Source: a virus. From it: a stretch of DNA of 64,000 bases. Each line of letters opens with the position of its first letter. The stretch's first letter is position 1. The stretch is taken from IMG/VR virus record IMGVR_UViG_3300042197_002762, positions 114,479 to 178,478 of that record. One strand, written 5' to 3'. The position numbers and the translations under genes were made by a program. The notes below the pieces were generated by a model. The model was not told the origin of the DNA and made no database searches. It worked only from the letters and a program-made list of their open reading frames with translations. Positions 8,835-33,853 of this stretch are shown here, piece after piece.

Positions 8835-9458
8835 ATGAATAATACTGTTGAACTAATTGGTTATTACGGTTCTGATGAAATAATTGCTTGTTCAGCCTGG
8901 ACTTCCACTTCTCGTAATTTAACAGAAGAAAAACGTGAGAGAATCGAGGGATTGATTAACATGCTTTGGTCGAATGGTCACGAAACCCCATTTGAAAAAG
9001 GTATTGTTCATTTTTTAGTAAATACAGATATTGCTACTCATATTCACCTCCTTAAACATCGTATTTCAAGTATTAATGCTGAATCAGCACGTTATAAAGA
9101 ACTAAAAGAGGATAAATATTATGTGCCCGATGACTGGCCTTTTGAATGGATTGAAAAATTAGAGAATTATACAGGACAAGGTCTAAAATTATACCATGAA
9201 TGTATTGATAACCTTACTAAACATTATGGTATAGACCGTAAACGCGCAAAAGAAACTGCACGATTTTTTCGTGGATATAATACACAAATCGAAGCTGATA
9301 TTATGTTTAATATGCGTAGTTTTGCTAATTTTTTAAAATTGCGCGATAGCGAACACGCTCAGAAAGAAATATGTGATATTGCCCAACAAATGGCGCAAGC
9401 TGTTAAGTCTATAGAAAATAGACCTTTTAAATTTACTTTAAAAGCTTTTGGGTATTAA
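8835..9458 (+). CDS. thyX: FAD-dependent thymidylate synthase ThyX
   Basis: 207 aa, full length. The ThyX signature RHRxxSxNxxSxRY appears at residues 74-87 as KHRISSINAESARY, with a conservative Arg to Lys change at the first position. It makes dTMP from dUMP with FAD, NADPH and methylene-tetrahydrofolate, supporting phage DNA synthesis. It has its own promoter and ends convergently, overlapping the next minus-strand gene by 4 nt. Confidence 0.95.
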   Translation: MNNTVELIGYYGSDEIIACSAWTSTSRNLTEEKRERIEGLINMLWSNGHETPFEKGIVHFLVNTDIATHIHLLKHRISSINAESARYKELKEDKYYVPDDWPFEWIEKLENYTGQGLKLYHECIDNLTKHYGIDRKRAKETARFFRGYNTQIEADIMFNMRSFANFLKLRDSEHAQKEICDIAQQMAQAVKSIENRPFKFTLKAFGY

Positions 9459-14128: not shown

Positions 14129-15877
14129 TTATGTTACGATTTTTGGTTTTGCTGGTAATTGGTTATTTCCAGTCCAATTACAGCTTCTTGGATTGGAAGG
14201 GTCATAAAAAGTTTGACATCTTGTTGGTATTATACTATCATTTGGAAGTCTAATTCCAGCAGAAGTTGCAATACCACTTTGTTGACATTGGATTATTATT
14301 CCTGTTGGGGTAATAACTTCATAACATTTGGAGCCTGTTGGCCAACTTCCCGAGTTAAATAATTTAACAACTTTTTTAACTCTATTATTATTTTTTGTAA
14401 AACCTTTATCCCAAAGAGTTCCGAATAATTTTGCACGAGCGTCTTTTTCAGCACGATTTTTTGCTATGTATTGGGGCTCATTATATGATTTATTACTATA
14501 AGCAATTTTTTTAGAAAAGAAAGTTCCAAATAAACCATTTTCGATACTTTTATCATCAATATAATGTGTATGGGTTGTTCCATTTCCTGATAAAACTCCA
14601 GTTCCAGAAACAAAATAATTTACAGAGTAAAAATCAAATTGCAAATTATTCGAACCATAATCACCATTTTTTGTTCTTACAACTTCTATTTGAAAAGGCG
14701 TCCCACTTGGAATAATACCATTCCAAGTACCTGTATTCATTGCATCTTTTCTATAAACTGGTTCATATAATTTGTAGAAATTAGTATTTGCTAATGGAAC
14801 ATTTTGTTTAAGTCTAACTTGTTCTAAGTTTACAAATTCAACAAACGAGTTATCAGAACCACTAGTAAAACCAGAACCAGAAATAAATGTTCCGGATTCT
14901 GGGAACTTTCTATAACTTAAACCACTAAAAGCAGTATCTTCACTAGAAACAGAAATTAAACTGCCACTTCTTAATATATATACATCTCTAGTACCAACAA
15001 CTTGACCATTTTTTCCAGTTTTTGGTGCTGCATTTGGTCTTCCAGAAAGTTCAGCCCAAAATCCCGAAAAGGTTTCTACTTTATGAGGGCTTACGTAAAC
15101 AATATTTTTTGTATTTATTCCTGTACTGATTATGATTAAATCCTTTATACCAGTAGTAACATTATTACCACTCAATGAAAATATATTTTTAATTTTAGGA
15201 ACAACAACTAAATCATGCCTAAAGGCTGGAAAGGATTTGGTTTCATAAGAGTGTGGATAAGTAGCCCATCTGGCACCGCTTGGTAAATTGCCACTAGTAT
15301 TACCAACTAAAACGCCAGTTTCACCTAAACCAGAACCATATATTTTATTTTTGTTATAAGAAACTCTTGTGGTAGCAATTTTATAAAATTGAGAAAACCC
15401 TGTAGTTAACTTGAAATATCTTTCTTTTTCTCCAAATCTTATTCCGGTAACTCCAGATACTACGAAAGTTTGCTCTGGAGAAGAAGTTAAACGACTAAAT
15501 GAAGCAAAAATAGGATCATAAGGATTATCTGGATATACTTGATTATAGACAGAATAATTTAATAATTCACCATTGGTTTGAATAGAACTTTCTGATTCTG
15601 CATAAAAATAATTCGTTTGACGAATATCGGAATTTTGAATTTCAACATATTTTTCTCCATTAGCCTCTTCTGAAACTAATGTTAAAACTTGCTTTGGTTT
15701 TCTTAAAGTTCCCAAGTTGATATTTTTTATTCTTATATTTGTATAAGATAAAGGCTCTTTTGTTTTTTTATCAAAAGATATGGGTGATAAATTTTCTAAA
15801 TCTTTTTTAAGATTATCTACTTGTGAACGATCAATTAGGCCAAGGCCTAATTTTCTTCTTTTATAATTGCTATTCAT
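14129..15877 (-). CDS. Large virion/tail-fibre-type protein
   Basis: 582 aa, Ser/Gly/Thr/Asn-rich with many short beta-prone segments and no enzymatic motif. The N-terminus (KRRKLGLGL) resembles the start of other fibre-region proteins here (35136-36383, 52657-53565, 53570-53827), suggesting a shared attachment module. It has no promoter of its own at the ATG. The nearest late motif is 400 nt upstream, and the space between holds a group I ribozyme, so expression may depend on RNA processing. Confidence 0.65.
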   Translation of the reverse strand: MNSNYKRRKLGLGLIDRSQVDNLKKDLENLSPISFDKKTKEPLSYTNIRIKNINLGTLRKPKQVLTLVSEEANGEKYVEIQNSDIRQTNYFYAESESSIQTNGELLNYSVYNQVYPDNPYDPIFASFSRLTSSPEQTFVVSGVTGIRFGEKERYFKLTTGFSQFYKIATTRVSYNKNKIYGSGLGETGVLVGNTSGNLPSGARWATYPHSYETKSFPAFRHDLVVVPKIKNIFSLSGNNVTTGIKDLIIISTGINTKNIVYVSPHKVETFSGFWAELSGRPNAAPKTGKNGQVVGTRDVYILRSGSLISVSSEDTAFSGLSYRKFPESGTFISGSGFTSGSDNSFVEFVNLEQVRLKQNVPLANTNFYKLYEPVYRKDAMNTGTWNGIIPSGTPFQIEVVRTKNGDYGSNNLQFDFYSVNYFVSGTGVLSGNGTTHTHYIDDKSIENGLFGTFFSKKIAYSNKSYNEPQYIAKNRAEKDARAKLFGTLWDKGFTKNNNRVKKVVKLFNSGSWPTGSKCYEVITPTGIIIQCQQSGIATSAGIRLPNDSIIPTRCQTFYDPSNPRSCNWTGNNQLPAKPKIVT

Positions 15878-16039
15878 TATGTTTAATCCGCCATCCAGAT
15901 GTCAGTTACTAACCTAAGTTCGTCCACGACCAGTGAACTACCCTAGGATTTGGGTCCGAATCTAGTAGGTCTCCGAACCAGCTCGGCAAAACTTTGTGTC
16001 TTGACTGTTGAGTGGCTCAATGCAACAATGATGTTATCG
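15878..16039 (-). other. Structured leader between ribozyme core and virion gene
   Basis: On the minus strand this 162-nt stretch is richer in GC than its surroundings. It can form CCGA/TCGG, CTAC/GTAG and GTTC/GAAC stems. It may hold P9 extensions and the 3' splice site of the upstream group I element, or a second RNA domain. No ORF fits it and I do not recognise a family. Confidence 0.45.
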
Positions 16040-16260
16040 TATACTTGTTTATAATATACTTCTTTATGTCACCATAAAGGTCAGACTATATCTTCTTTCT
16101 TACGAAAGTTCGGGCGCTCGTGGGCCGTATTATTGTTGGGACTCAACAGCCTAGTCGTTACACCTTCCATCTTATCTTTCCCAGATGGCTTGGATCGGGA
16201 TTGTCTTTATTTCTAAAGAGTTTCCCCGAATTCACCCGATAACGGACTTGCTAAAATTTT
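16040..16260 (-). ncRNA. Group I intron-like ribozyme core (td-like)
   Basis: On the minus strand the conserved core elements appear in order. A P-like GGGGAAACTC is at about 16219-16228, and a Q-like GACAATCCCGATCC lies around 16192-16205. An R-like GTAACGACTAGGCTG is near 16147-16161, and an S-like AAGATATAGTCTGACC at 16079-16094 is followed by a P9 hairpin with GGTGAC in its loop (16062-16079). S and P9 closely resemble the phage T4 td intron. A plausible P1 with a U-G pair puts the 5' splice site near 16246/16245. No homing endonuclease ORF is inside it. The 3' splice site is not resolved. Confidence 0.82.
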
Positions 16261-16276
16261 AAAGAACTATTTATTA

Positions 16277-16282
16277 TTACAC
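16277..16282 (-). promoter_or_regulatory. Late-promoter motif upstream of ribozyme leader (minus)
   Basis: ATGTGTAATAATAAATAG on the minus strand, about 30 nt before the predicted 5' splice site and 400 nt before the ATG at 15877. It is the best candidate promoter for the virion gene. Confidence 0.55.
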
Positions 16283-16330
16283 ATTATTTTTTAAATAGAC
16301 TTAAATTTTAAATTAAAGTATAATAAAATT

Positions 16331-28441: not shown

Positions 28442-29058
28442 ATATTTTAATATTAGGTGGCACACAAATGATTGGTAAGGATTTTACTAATCTTTTAATT
28501 ACTAATAATAAAAATTATAAAATAATTATAGCGAATCGTGGGCTAACAAGGCCAGATTTATTTCCTAATATACCTCATGTTAAAATAGATAGAAACATAG
28601 AGTCAACATGCCAAGTGTTATCCAATTATAATTTTGATATTGTGGTTGATTTTTCATGTTATACCGTAGATCAATTCAGTAATACATATAAATATTTAAA
28701 ATATAATAAGTATATTTATATATCTACAATGTCCGTACATGAAAAGCATATTATAAATAATCTTGATTTAAATAATAATTATCATAGATATTGTATAGGT
28801 AAATATCTAATTGAAGAATTTATATTTAACAATAAAATAAGAAATTGCTTAATTATAAGGCCTTGTGCGATTTATGGCGAGGATGATTATACAAATAGGT
28901 TTTATAAGAAAGATGGTGAGTATTATTGGAAATCGAATAACTCTAAAGTTGGAACTGGAACAATGTTTGTAAAAGATTTCTCTAAATTACTTAGCTATCA
29001 TATACATAGCTACCCAGAAATTGGTGCTATAGATGTTTGTGAAAAATGGTGGACGTGA
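28438..29058 (+). CDS. NAD-dependent sugar epimerase/SDR, short
   Basis: 206 aa. Rossmann GGTQMIG (7-13), ISTMSV, YCIGK as a Tyr-x-x-x-Lys motif and RPCAIYGE. Extended SDRs are usually about 300 aa, so the substrate-binding end is shortened. Its last 12 nt overlap the 3' end of the tmRNA on the other strand. Likely works with the neighbouring sugar genes. Confidence 0.75.
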   Translation: MNILILGGTQMIGKDFTNLLITNNKNYKIIIANRGLTRPDLFPNIPHVKIDRNIESTCQVLSNYNFDIVVDFSCYTVDQFSNTYKYLKYNKYIYISTMSVHEKHIINNLDLNNNYHRYCIGKYLIEEFIFNNKIRNCLIIRPCAIYGEDDYTNRFYKKDGEYYWKSNNSKVGTGTMFVKDFSKLLSYHIHSYPEIGAIDVCEKWWT

Positions 29059-29481
29059 GGAGAGTTGAACTCCTGTCCATTTAATTTACATTAAAAAGTC
29101 TACATGTTTAAGTGTTTTTGGTATTTGGTTGGCTAAAGGTTACCTTGGTACACTAACCTATCTTTTAAAGCCTACCTATGCAGAGAACATTCTGCATAAT
29201 GTTCAACAATTATTTTTACAATTAAGTTGACTTCATAAACCTATTGCAGTTCCAACGCTTTTAATAGGATCCAGACATTGGTTCTTAGGCAGCCATCAAG
29301 TATTCTTCTTCAACACCGCCGAGAAACTCGTCGGAGTTATTGAAGATGTACTCAGCTTCTGCCAAGATCGAGTCAGTATTATCTTCTGCTCTTAATTTTT
29401 TAATCGATTTTTTACGAGGCCATCGATTAACCTCGACATGCGTTTTTAATTTCAACCAAATGTCGAAACCAGTACACGCCC
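29047..29481 (-). ncRNA. ssrA: tmRNA
   Basis: Acceptor GGGCGTG (5') pairs with CACGTCC, discriminator A, CCA encoded at the 3' end. The pairing keeps G3-U70, the alanine identity pair. The T-arm GGAGTTCAACTCTCC and the 5' GTACTGGTTTCGACA are typical. An in-frame tag runs from GCA at 29389 to TAA at 29285, encoding a 34-residue tag that ends EEEYLMAA. A CCGACGAG/CTCGGCGG hairpin lies inside. It would rescue stalled ribosomes. The resume codon is inferred; the tag is long. Confidence 0.9.
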
Positions 29482-32507: not shown

Positions 32508-32536
32508 TTGACAAACTTATAAAATAAGTGTATAAA
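32508..32536 (+). promoter_or_regulatory. Sigma70 promoter of structured ncRNA and tRNA-Met
   Basis: TTGACA (32508-32513), 17-nt spacer, TATAAA (32531-32536). Transcription would start near 32543, with no ORF downstream until after the tRNA. Confidence 0.75.
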
Positions 32537-32542
32537 AGTAAT

Positions 32543-32905
32543 AGTTCTTTGAAAACAATTTGTTAGCAAACCGCTCACTAAGAGCAGAGATGCTAACAAT
32601 GGTGGTGTGGCGATGAACAACCAGTAAAATTGGGGTCGCCTTTGAATAAGGTATGCAACTCTACCTCCATATTTCCGTGCTTACATGCACGGAGACTTCT
32701 AGAAGCAATATGGTTCCACAGTGAATAAGCTGCCAGACATGCTGGTCAAAAAAGAAGAGCGCGGGTTCTGGGTAAACCGAAGGCTGTATGTGCCAAAACT
32801 CATGTATAAATGGTTTGGTGTTCTGCGGCTACTGAATGGGTAGCCAATGCCGTAAAAGGCGCAACTTTTACGGTCCAAAGTGCGATAAAAACACCAAGTT
32901 TTAAT
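32543..32905 (+). ncRNA. Highly structured RNA, ~360 nt, unknown class
   Basis: Non-coding stretch behind a strong promoter. Perfect stems: 32560-32568/32591-32599 (9 bp), 32609-32613/32636-32640, 32675-32680/32687-32692, 32827-32832/32840-32845, 32850-32858/32865-32873 (9 bp), and a closing pair 32815-32822/32890-32897 (8 bp) that forms a multiloop. It runs directly into tRNA-Met. It lacks tmRNA, RNase P, SRP and group I core motifs. Large ornate phage RNAs (GOLLD, ROOL) also sit beside tRNAs; membership is unproven. Confidence 0.75.
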
Positions 32906-32978
32906 TGCAGGATCGACAAGAGGTTAAGTCAGTAGGCTCATAACCTACCATGCGTGAGTTCAAATCTCACTCCTGCTA
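32906..32978 (+). tRNA. tRNA with CAU anticodon (Met, possibly Ile2)
   Basis: Anticodon loop CTCATAA gives CAT; stem GTAGG/CCTAC, T-arm GTGAG/CTCAC. Acceptor GCAGGA/TCCTGC with a U1-U72 mismatch. It lacks the GGG/CCC anticodon-stem pairs of initiators, so elongator Met, or Ile if modified by TilS. Confidence 0.85.
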
Positions 32979-33005: not shown

Positions 33006-33853
33006 ATGATTATATCAAAATTAATGGGGGGGCTAGGAAATCAAATGTTTCAATATGCTTTTGCAAGAAACTTATCTCTTAAATTTAACACGCCATTAAA
33101 AATAGATTTATTGCGATTAAAAAAAGAACGGAAGAAAGTTTTAATTCTAAAACAGGACCTAGAAGAGATTACGATTTAAATGTATTTAATGTTTATGAAG
33201 ATTTTGAAATCAATCCTCAAAAATTAATAACAATCTCTGAACCCCATTTTCATTATAATAAAGATTTAATTGATATTATTGAGAAACTTATTCGTAATGG
33301 TTACGATATTCTTTTAAGGGGGTATTGGCAAAGCCCCCACTACTTTAATGAAAATGAATCACAGATCAGACAAGATTTTAAATTTAAAAATAGTATTTTT
33401 AATGAAGAGGGTGATATAAGTAAATTATTAAATAATATAAATTCTAAAAATTCTGTAATGATCAACATACGAAGGACCGATTATTTACAAACATCTTTTT
33501 TTGGCGTTATGGGGTTAGATTATCTAGAAAAAGCAAAAAAGATAATTGAATCAAAGATTTCAGATCCTCACTATTTTGTTTTTTCAGACGATATTTTTTG
33601 GTGCGAAAAAAATATTAAATTTCCAAATATGTTTTTAGTTGATCATTCTTATAAGGGGCGTAAATTTGAGTATTATTTGCAGTTAATGTCCCAATGCAAA
33701 CATTTTATTATACCAAATAGTACTTTTGCTTGGTGGGGCGCTTGGTTAAATAATGATAATAATAAACTAGTAATAGCTCCGTCCAAATGGTTCACGAATT
33801 GTGATATAAATACTAAAGATCTAATACCTTTTAAAAATTGGATTCGTATCTAA
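33006..33853 (+). CDS. Alpha-1,2-fucosyltransferase (GT11), frame-interrupted
   Basis: The first 57 codons (33006-33179) give LMGGLGNQMFQYAFARNLS, the GT11 N-terminus, then stop. From 33125 the -1 frame continues without a stop to 33853, with NIRRTDY and IPNSTFAWWGAWL, the GT11 C-terminal motifs. Joined by a -1 shift at AAAAAAA (33119-33125) the product is about 282 aa, normal for the family. This is either a pseudogene, an A7 phase-variable gene, programmed frameshifting, or a sequencing slip. Confidence 0.8.
33119..33125 (+). promoter_or_regulatory. Candidate -1 slippery heptamer A AAA AAA
   Basis: In the zero frame TTA AAA AAA GAA. A -1 slip continues directly into the rest of the fucosyltransferase. 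No clear downstream stem was found by eye. Confidence 0.45.

Follow-up and report, generated by a model that had tools for sequence, protein, structure and literature searches.

To our knowledge, the very large structured RNAs described from phages fall into only a few classes, and their role is an open question. Two of them, GOLLD and ROOL, have been shown to form RNA-only particles, and GOLLD joins a conserved 3′ region to a variable 5′ region (PMC12286853). Here we describe an RNA of 365 nucleotides (nt) at positions 32540–32904 (plus strand) of a 64,000-nt window, the whole stretch of DNA analysed, which spans positions 114,479 to 178,478 of the 178,478-base IMG/VR virus record IMGVR_UViG_3300042197_002762. 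It is a relative of GOLLD and ROOL in lifestyle, not in sequence: a long non-coding RNA whose structure covaries extensively, found in phages near tRNA genes, that adds a new family to the large ornate phage RNAs, a kind already known. No Rfam 15 family matched it at the gathering score, nor when filters were relaxed and E ≤ 5 was allowed, which, together with strong comparative support, bears out a sequence-only reading of the window that had called it a large structured RNA of unknown class and named an Infernal search as a check. No description of the family was found in Rfam 15 or the open-access papers searched, a search that did not cover candidate lists outside Rfam, where prior mention is possible.

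Homologs and covariation

Three close homologs (L110, L112 and L113), located via their neighbouring proteins, share ~82–83% identity with the window across the RNA. Scanning IMG/VR for the invariant AGGTATGCAACTCTACC returned the divergent L143, L144, L145, L146, L147 and L151, plus duplicates and fragments, on contigs as long as 211 kb, and a 3′ motif scan added L268. In total, IMG/VR pattern scans combined with a covariance model yielded 11 distinct full sequences and one partial, with lengths from 271 nt (L268, core only) to ~610 nt (L143, enlarged 5′ domain) and model matches of 1e-24 to 1e-65, a single copy per phage record. Among 50,697 annotated phages there was no match to the RNA, and BLASTN in INPHARED with the window, L147 and L143 returned tRNA or chance matches only. 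None of the 88 matches that a pattern scan returned from 84,980 bacterial and archaeal genomes is a homolog (by nhmmer, and by the covariance model for those checked), and a model search of 296 genomes from one bacterial phylum, which had no positive control, produced none. All 68 matches to the 15-mer CAGAGATGCTAACAA were chance by BLAST, and L252, L263 and L264 were likewise discarded as chance matches.

Helices were proposed by comparison and then counted on an unguided MAFFT alignment of 10 sequences, in which 82% of cells pair (29–44% in slid controls). Both sides had changed at 18 pairs, compared with a shuffle mean of 8.6 and 3–8 in slid controls, and none of 500 shuffles reached 18. 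The same held (0/500) for the 30 cells with double changes (shuffle, 11.5) and for the covariation score of 0.131 (shuffle, 0.071). The helix list was drawn up on the same sequences, which introduces some upward bias, but shuffled and slid controls stay far below. Because these 18 compensatory pairs exceed both kinds of control on an unguided alignment, the RNA structure is real, and the 11 distinct full members with their covariation supply the comparative check that had been suggested for it. A condensed hand table of stems, picked sequence by sequence, is descriptive only; the unguided count is the test. Run on the full alignments, RNAalifold is misled by variable hairpins that fail to line up and recovers the structure only in part; helices were therefore defined by comparison and tested through pair counting. 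The RNA also stands out in composition and predicted stability, with a GC content of 43% (window, 31%; <1% of 366-nt windows equally GC-rich) and a minimum free energy of −112.9 kcal/mol, lower than in any of 100 shuffles (z = −3.4; z = −3.5 on repeat).

Secondary structure

The helices, all on the plus strand, are as follows; clade B denotes the members followed by tRNA-Asn (L144, L145, L147 and L151).

32552–32556: 5′ strand (AAAAC) of P1, with GTTTT at 32898–32902; tentative long-range closing helix, from sequence comparison
32560–32599: P2a, variable 5′ hairpin, from folding; missing from L146 and L268, while clade B has other hairpins instead
32609–32640: P2b, hairpin GGCGA...TCGCC, kept in the window's clade and L146
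32650–32665: P3, invariant hairpin GGTA-TGCAACTC-TACC, from comparison; GGT/ACC in L268
32667–32713: P4, CCATAT/ATATGG with inner hairpins P4a and P4b; compensatory (CCATAT/ATATGG versus CTCTAT/ATAGAG)
32714–32725: P5, TTC-CACAGT-GAA; TTC/GAA, TCC/GGA, TTT/AAA and TCTC/GGGA
32733–32745: P6, CCAG/CTGG, paired in seven different versions
32764–32778: P7, GGTT-CTGGGTA-AACC; loop CTGGGT may pair with ACTCAT at 32798–32803
32782–32794: P8, 3-bp stem with a 7-nt loop; GGC/GCC, AGC/GCT, GTC/GAC and GGT/ACC
32817–32895: P10, GGTGTT/AACACC, near invariant, enclosing P11 (32827–32845) and P12 (32850–32873), which covary
32860–32884: candidate pseudoknot, CGCA in the P12 loop (inside GCGCAA) with the 3′ TGCG at 32881–32884

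P11 occurs in eight versions, to which L268 adds CTGTGT/ACACAG, and P12 occurs as CCGT/ACGG, CCAG/CTGG and CCAT/ATGG, with CCTCT/AGAGG added by L268. The possible pairing of the P7 loop with the strand after P8, whose exact register is ambiguous, extends over 6 bp in L143 and also in L268, two members with unrelated sequences at this point, and 3–5 bp elsewhere. The CGCA/TGCG pairing is possible in all 11 sequences and was chosen independently by RNAalifold, but both strands are invariant, which makes the pseudoknot a good candidate and no proof. Invariance of P3 is in part a selection effect, as this hairpin was the search pattern, though L268 was found without it. P1 is weak and A/T-rich, with a C-G pair in the window where homologs carry an A/T-only version. 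Of the stems proposed from the sequence, both 9-bp helices (TTGTTAGCA/TGCTAACAA and CCGTAAAAG/CTTTTACGG) and the 8-bp closure TTGGTGTT/AACACCAA are present in the window, the closure being reduced to 5–6 conserved pairs in homologs.

Predicted transcript start and expression

Three further features, also on the plus strand, frame the RNA:

32508–32536: sigma70-type promoter, TTGACA-17 nt-TATAAA (TTGACA 32508–32513, TATAAA 32531–32536), from sequence
32544–32554: boxA-like antitermination element GTTCTTTGAAA at the expected transcript 5′ end
32906–32978: tRNA-Met(CAT), downstream in the same predicted transcript, by ARAGORN and Rfam (bounds 32905/32906–32978/9)

The perfect spacing claimed for the promoter can be read directly from the DNA; an automated scan misses it, as that scan requires T as the last −10 base. 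Hexamers and spacing are kept in L110, L112 and L113 and are similar in L146. As had also been claimed, the RNA stretch holds no credible open reading frame (ORF): its frames encode just ~40–60 amino acids (aa) and are broken by indels between homologs.

A variant of GTTCTTTGAAA forms the first bases after the −10 hexamer in 10 of the 11 distinct members, including GTTCTTTAAAA in L146 and GATCTTTGAAA in L143, with L268 as the exception. The same element opens the transfer-messenger RNA (tmRNA) genes of the window, L110, L111, L112 and L113, as well as a group I RNA of the window. Compared with the gamma-proteobacterial boxA consensus GYTCTTTAANA (PMC5725501), the window has one mismatch and L146 is exact. 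A GYTCTTTAANA-like sequence stands at the start of the predicted untranslated transcript, and we read it as a probable boxA that would let RNA polymerase cross a long untranslated region. The arrangement is reminiscent of ribosomal RNA leaders under Nus antitermination, where boxA likewise opens a long untranslated RNA followed by a tRNA; the difference is that the phage element is a candidate recognized by its sequence.

Expression could then proceed in a few steps. The dedicated promoter would start a transcript opening with the boxA-like element, through which host Nus factors would carry RNA polymerase along the untranslated RNA without Rho termination. The RNA would fold into a compact core (P3–P12) with the invariant loop-to-3′-end candidate pseudoknot and, tentatively, the long-range closing helix P1. 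Transcription in the window's clade would continue into tRNA-Met. RNase P matures tRNA 5′ ends, and a cut there would release the tRNA and the 3′ end of the RNA together, the product being a free compact RNA.

Genomic contexts

The RNA occurs in four unrelated contexts, all in large environmental phages. In the window, L110, L112 and L113 (context A) the order is a gene for an 89-aa protein, the RNA and tRNA-Met; L146, whose DNA polymerase is 44% identical to that of the window, has the 89-aa gene nearby. In L144, L145, L147 and L151 (context B) the RNA is followed by a second structured-looking RNA of ~200 nt and tRNA-Asn. In L143 (context C) it lies between small ORFs, and in L268 (context D) the core alone sits at an ORF end, with tmRNA, tRNA-Met and GOLLD upstream. 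Since no protein family flanks the RNA across all four contexts, the conserved unit is the RNA and not a neighbour.

Its bond with tRNA-Met is equally conditional. In the window only 2–3 nt separate the last paired base from the tRNA, with no terminator-like site between them, and the description of the RNA as fused to tRNA-Met holds for this clade in the sense of adjoining. It does not hold elsewhere, so the tRNA is no intrinsic part: tRNA-Met follows directly in four members, the second RNA and tRNA-Asn in four, and no tRNA in L146, L143 and L268. The short gap, the missing terminator and the clade B transcript, which likewise ends in a tRNA, would suit a leader that acts in cis to control how tRNA-Met is expressed or processed and has no role of its own. 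We consider this unlikely, given that the core is kept without a following tRNA or with a different one, and that L111 has tRNA-Met without the RNA. One of these tRNAs, behind the RNA of L112 (5061–5150), has a CAT anticodon and a long variable arm (GGCAA...TTGCC), unlike its counterparts.

Comparison with known RNA families

The cores of tmRNA, RNase P RNA, signal recognition particle (SRP) RNA and group I introns had been reported absent, and indeed none of these models matched the RNA, nor did 6S RNA, riboswitches or other Rfam families. RNase P, SRP, 6S, T-box, retron and IscB/HEARO RNAs were dropped as candidates for want of a motif or model match, and RF01998 (group-II-D1D4-1) found nothing in the window's own genome.

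Size, pseudoknots and patchy presence could also point to an insertion between promoter and tRNA, either a ribozyme or a degenerate self-splicing intron, the more so as the window phage carries a group I core behind a similar boxA-like start and HNH-like genes lie near some copies. However, no intron model matches the RNA, and this includes the group I model RF00028 (P3–P8/P7 core), which fires at 16062–16295 of the window; the RNA has its own promoter and boxA-like element, interrupts no gene and shows no recognized cleavage motif, and this origin is improbable.

The likeness to GOLLD (RF02032) goes beyond tRNA neighbours, as both are large ornate phage RNAs with a conserved 3′ and a variable 5′ part (PMC12286853), and ROOL (RF03087), known from phages and prophages, also lies close to tRNA islands. 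Even so, it is quite improbable that the new RNA is a GOLLD or ROOL homolog too divergent for the models to recognize. GOLLD (gathering score, 150 bits) had no match in the window, L144, L143 or L146 at E ≤ 5 or 3, and ROOL none by cmscan in the same number of members (four) or in the carrier records, the latter search having no positive control. The new RNA is also shorter (270–610 nt) than GOLLD, which often exceeds 800 nt. Moreover, phage G348 carries a full-score 150-bit GOLLD at L268 5400–6300 (G348:C1:17289–17694), between tmRNA/tRNA-Met and the new RNA and 2.8 kb from the latter; the presence of both in one phage argues that the new RNA is a separate family. The comparison with ornate phage RNAs drawn by the sequence-only reading is therefore apt in lifestyle, whereas its suggestion of a divergent member is unsupported.

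The tmRNA (RF00023) of these phages is a stable structured RNA with the same boxA-like start. It is defined by a tRNA-like domain and a tag reading frame; the new RNA has neither tRNA-like ends nor such a frame, does not match RF00023 and is encoded by a separate gene in each phage. All 13 tested records with the RNA encode a tmRNA, compared with four of seven relatives without it, an association that is suggestive at most because tmRNA occurs widely in this phage neighbourhood in any case.

Proposed role

The element is probably a structural non-coding RNA of large phages that is autonomous and acts in trans, and this is the reading we favour. It is best read as a single-copy RNA, probably antiterminated, in which a variable 5′ domain is joined to a conserved 3′ core that includes the invariant candidate pseudoknot; it is set in tRNA/tmRNA islands. 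Given the tRNA, tmRNA and GOLLD neighbourhood, our best guess at function is a translation- or ribosome-linked role during infection, which is conjecture, or possibly, by analogy with GOLLD and ROOL, a homo-oligomeric RNA particle. A fuller version is offered tentatively: a distinct phage RNA machine, neither GOLLD nor ROOL, that might be Nus-antiterminated together with tRNA and tmRNA, act on the host ribosome or as an RNA-only assembly, and combine the core with an exchangeable 5′ domain and the second RNA module.

Several observations weigh against the autonomous RNA. The antisense strand gives equally strong thermodynamic z-scores, so orientation rests on the promoter, the boxA-like element and the tRNA direction. 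The transcript is predicted and the boxA assigned from the DNA letters. L268 lacks both boxA and the 5′ domain, and there the RNA overlaps an ORF end. The tmRNA link is weak and several of the records are near duplicates. Finally, the RNA is absent from close relatives and is therefore dispensable: L111, whose DNA polymerase is 84% identical to that of the window, retains the 89-aa gene and tRNA-Met with ~30 bp between them, and the covariance model finds no RNA in its 57-kb record. Patchy presence, single copy and the invariant exposed loops TGCAACTC and CAYAGT might also fit a defence, counter-defence or sponge RNA binding a host protein or nucleic acid, which is very improbable, with no specific evidence and no linked protein.

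As a separate family with the genomic neighbourhood of the known large phage RNAs, and with a boxA-like start common to the phages' tmRNA, the RNA points to a common expression logic for such RNAs and to a translation-linked role. At 270–610 nt it offers a smaller object for structure work on large phage RNAs, and the covariance model and alignment permit searches of other collections.

Neighbouring RNAs and other observations

The second structured-looking RNA is conserved between the main RNA and tRNA-Asn in L144 (5575–5783), L145, L147 and L151, with the motif order CCGAGAATCC...AACCCACTGATGA...AAGGGGGATGG...CAGCCGAA and no Rfam match. It also occurs in L127 (~1500–1760) and, in a short version, in L268 (~9150–9225). 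In G016, whose DNA polymerase places it close to the window phage, the second RNA stands behind a boxA-like element and the main RNA is absent. The second RNA looks like an exchangeable module. A third structured-looking insert of ~120 nt (GAGACGTTG...CCGTCTC) lies between the main and second RNAs in L145 (10710–10833, minus strand).

The group I intron core of the window (16062–16295, minus strand; 69.6 bits; element ~15880–16320) seems free-standing: a promoter-like sequence and the boxA-like GTTCTTTAAAA immediately precede it, and no gene is obviously interrupted; structured-looking sequence continues past the core to an ORF at 15877. The window's tmRNA (29047–29481, minus strand) scores 132 bits with Rfam, was missed by ARAGORN and has an apparently very long tag frame of ~34 aa ending ...GGVEEEYLMAA. 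Related phages have similarly long tags (30 aa in L268 by ARAGORN). Downstream of tRNA-Met, at 33006–33853 of the window, a glycosyltransferase-like gene (MIISKLMGGLGNQMFQYAFA...NSTFAWWGAWLN) is split into two ORFs by a frame change.
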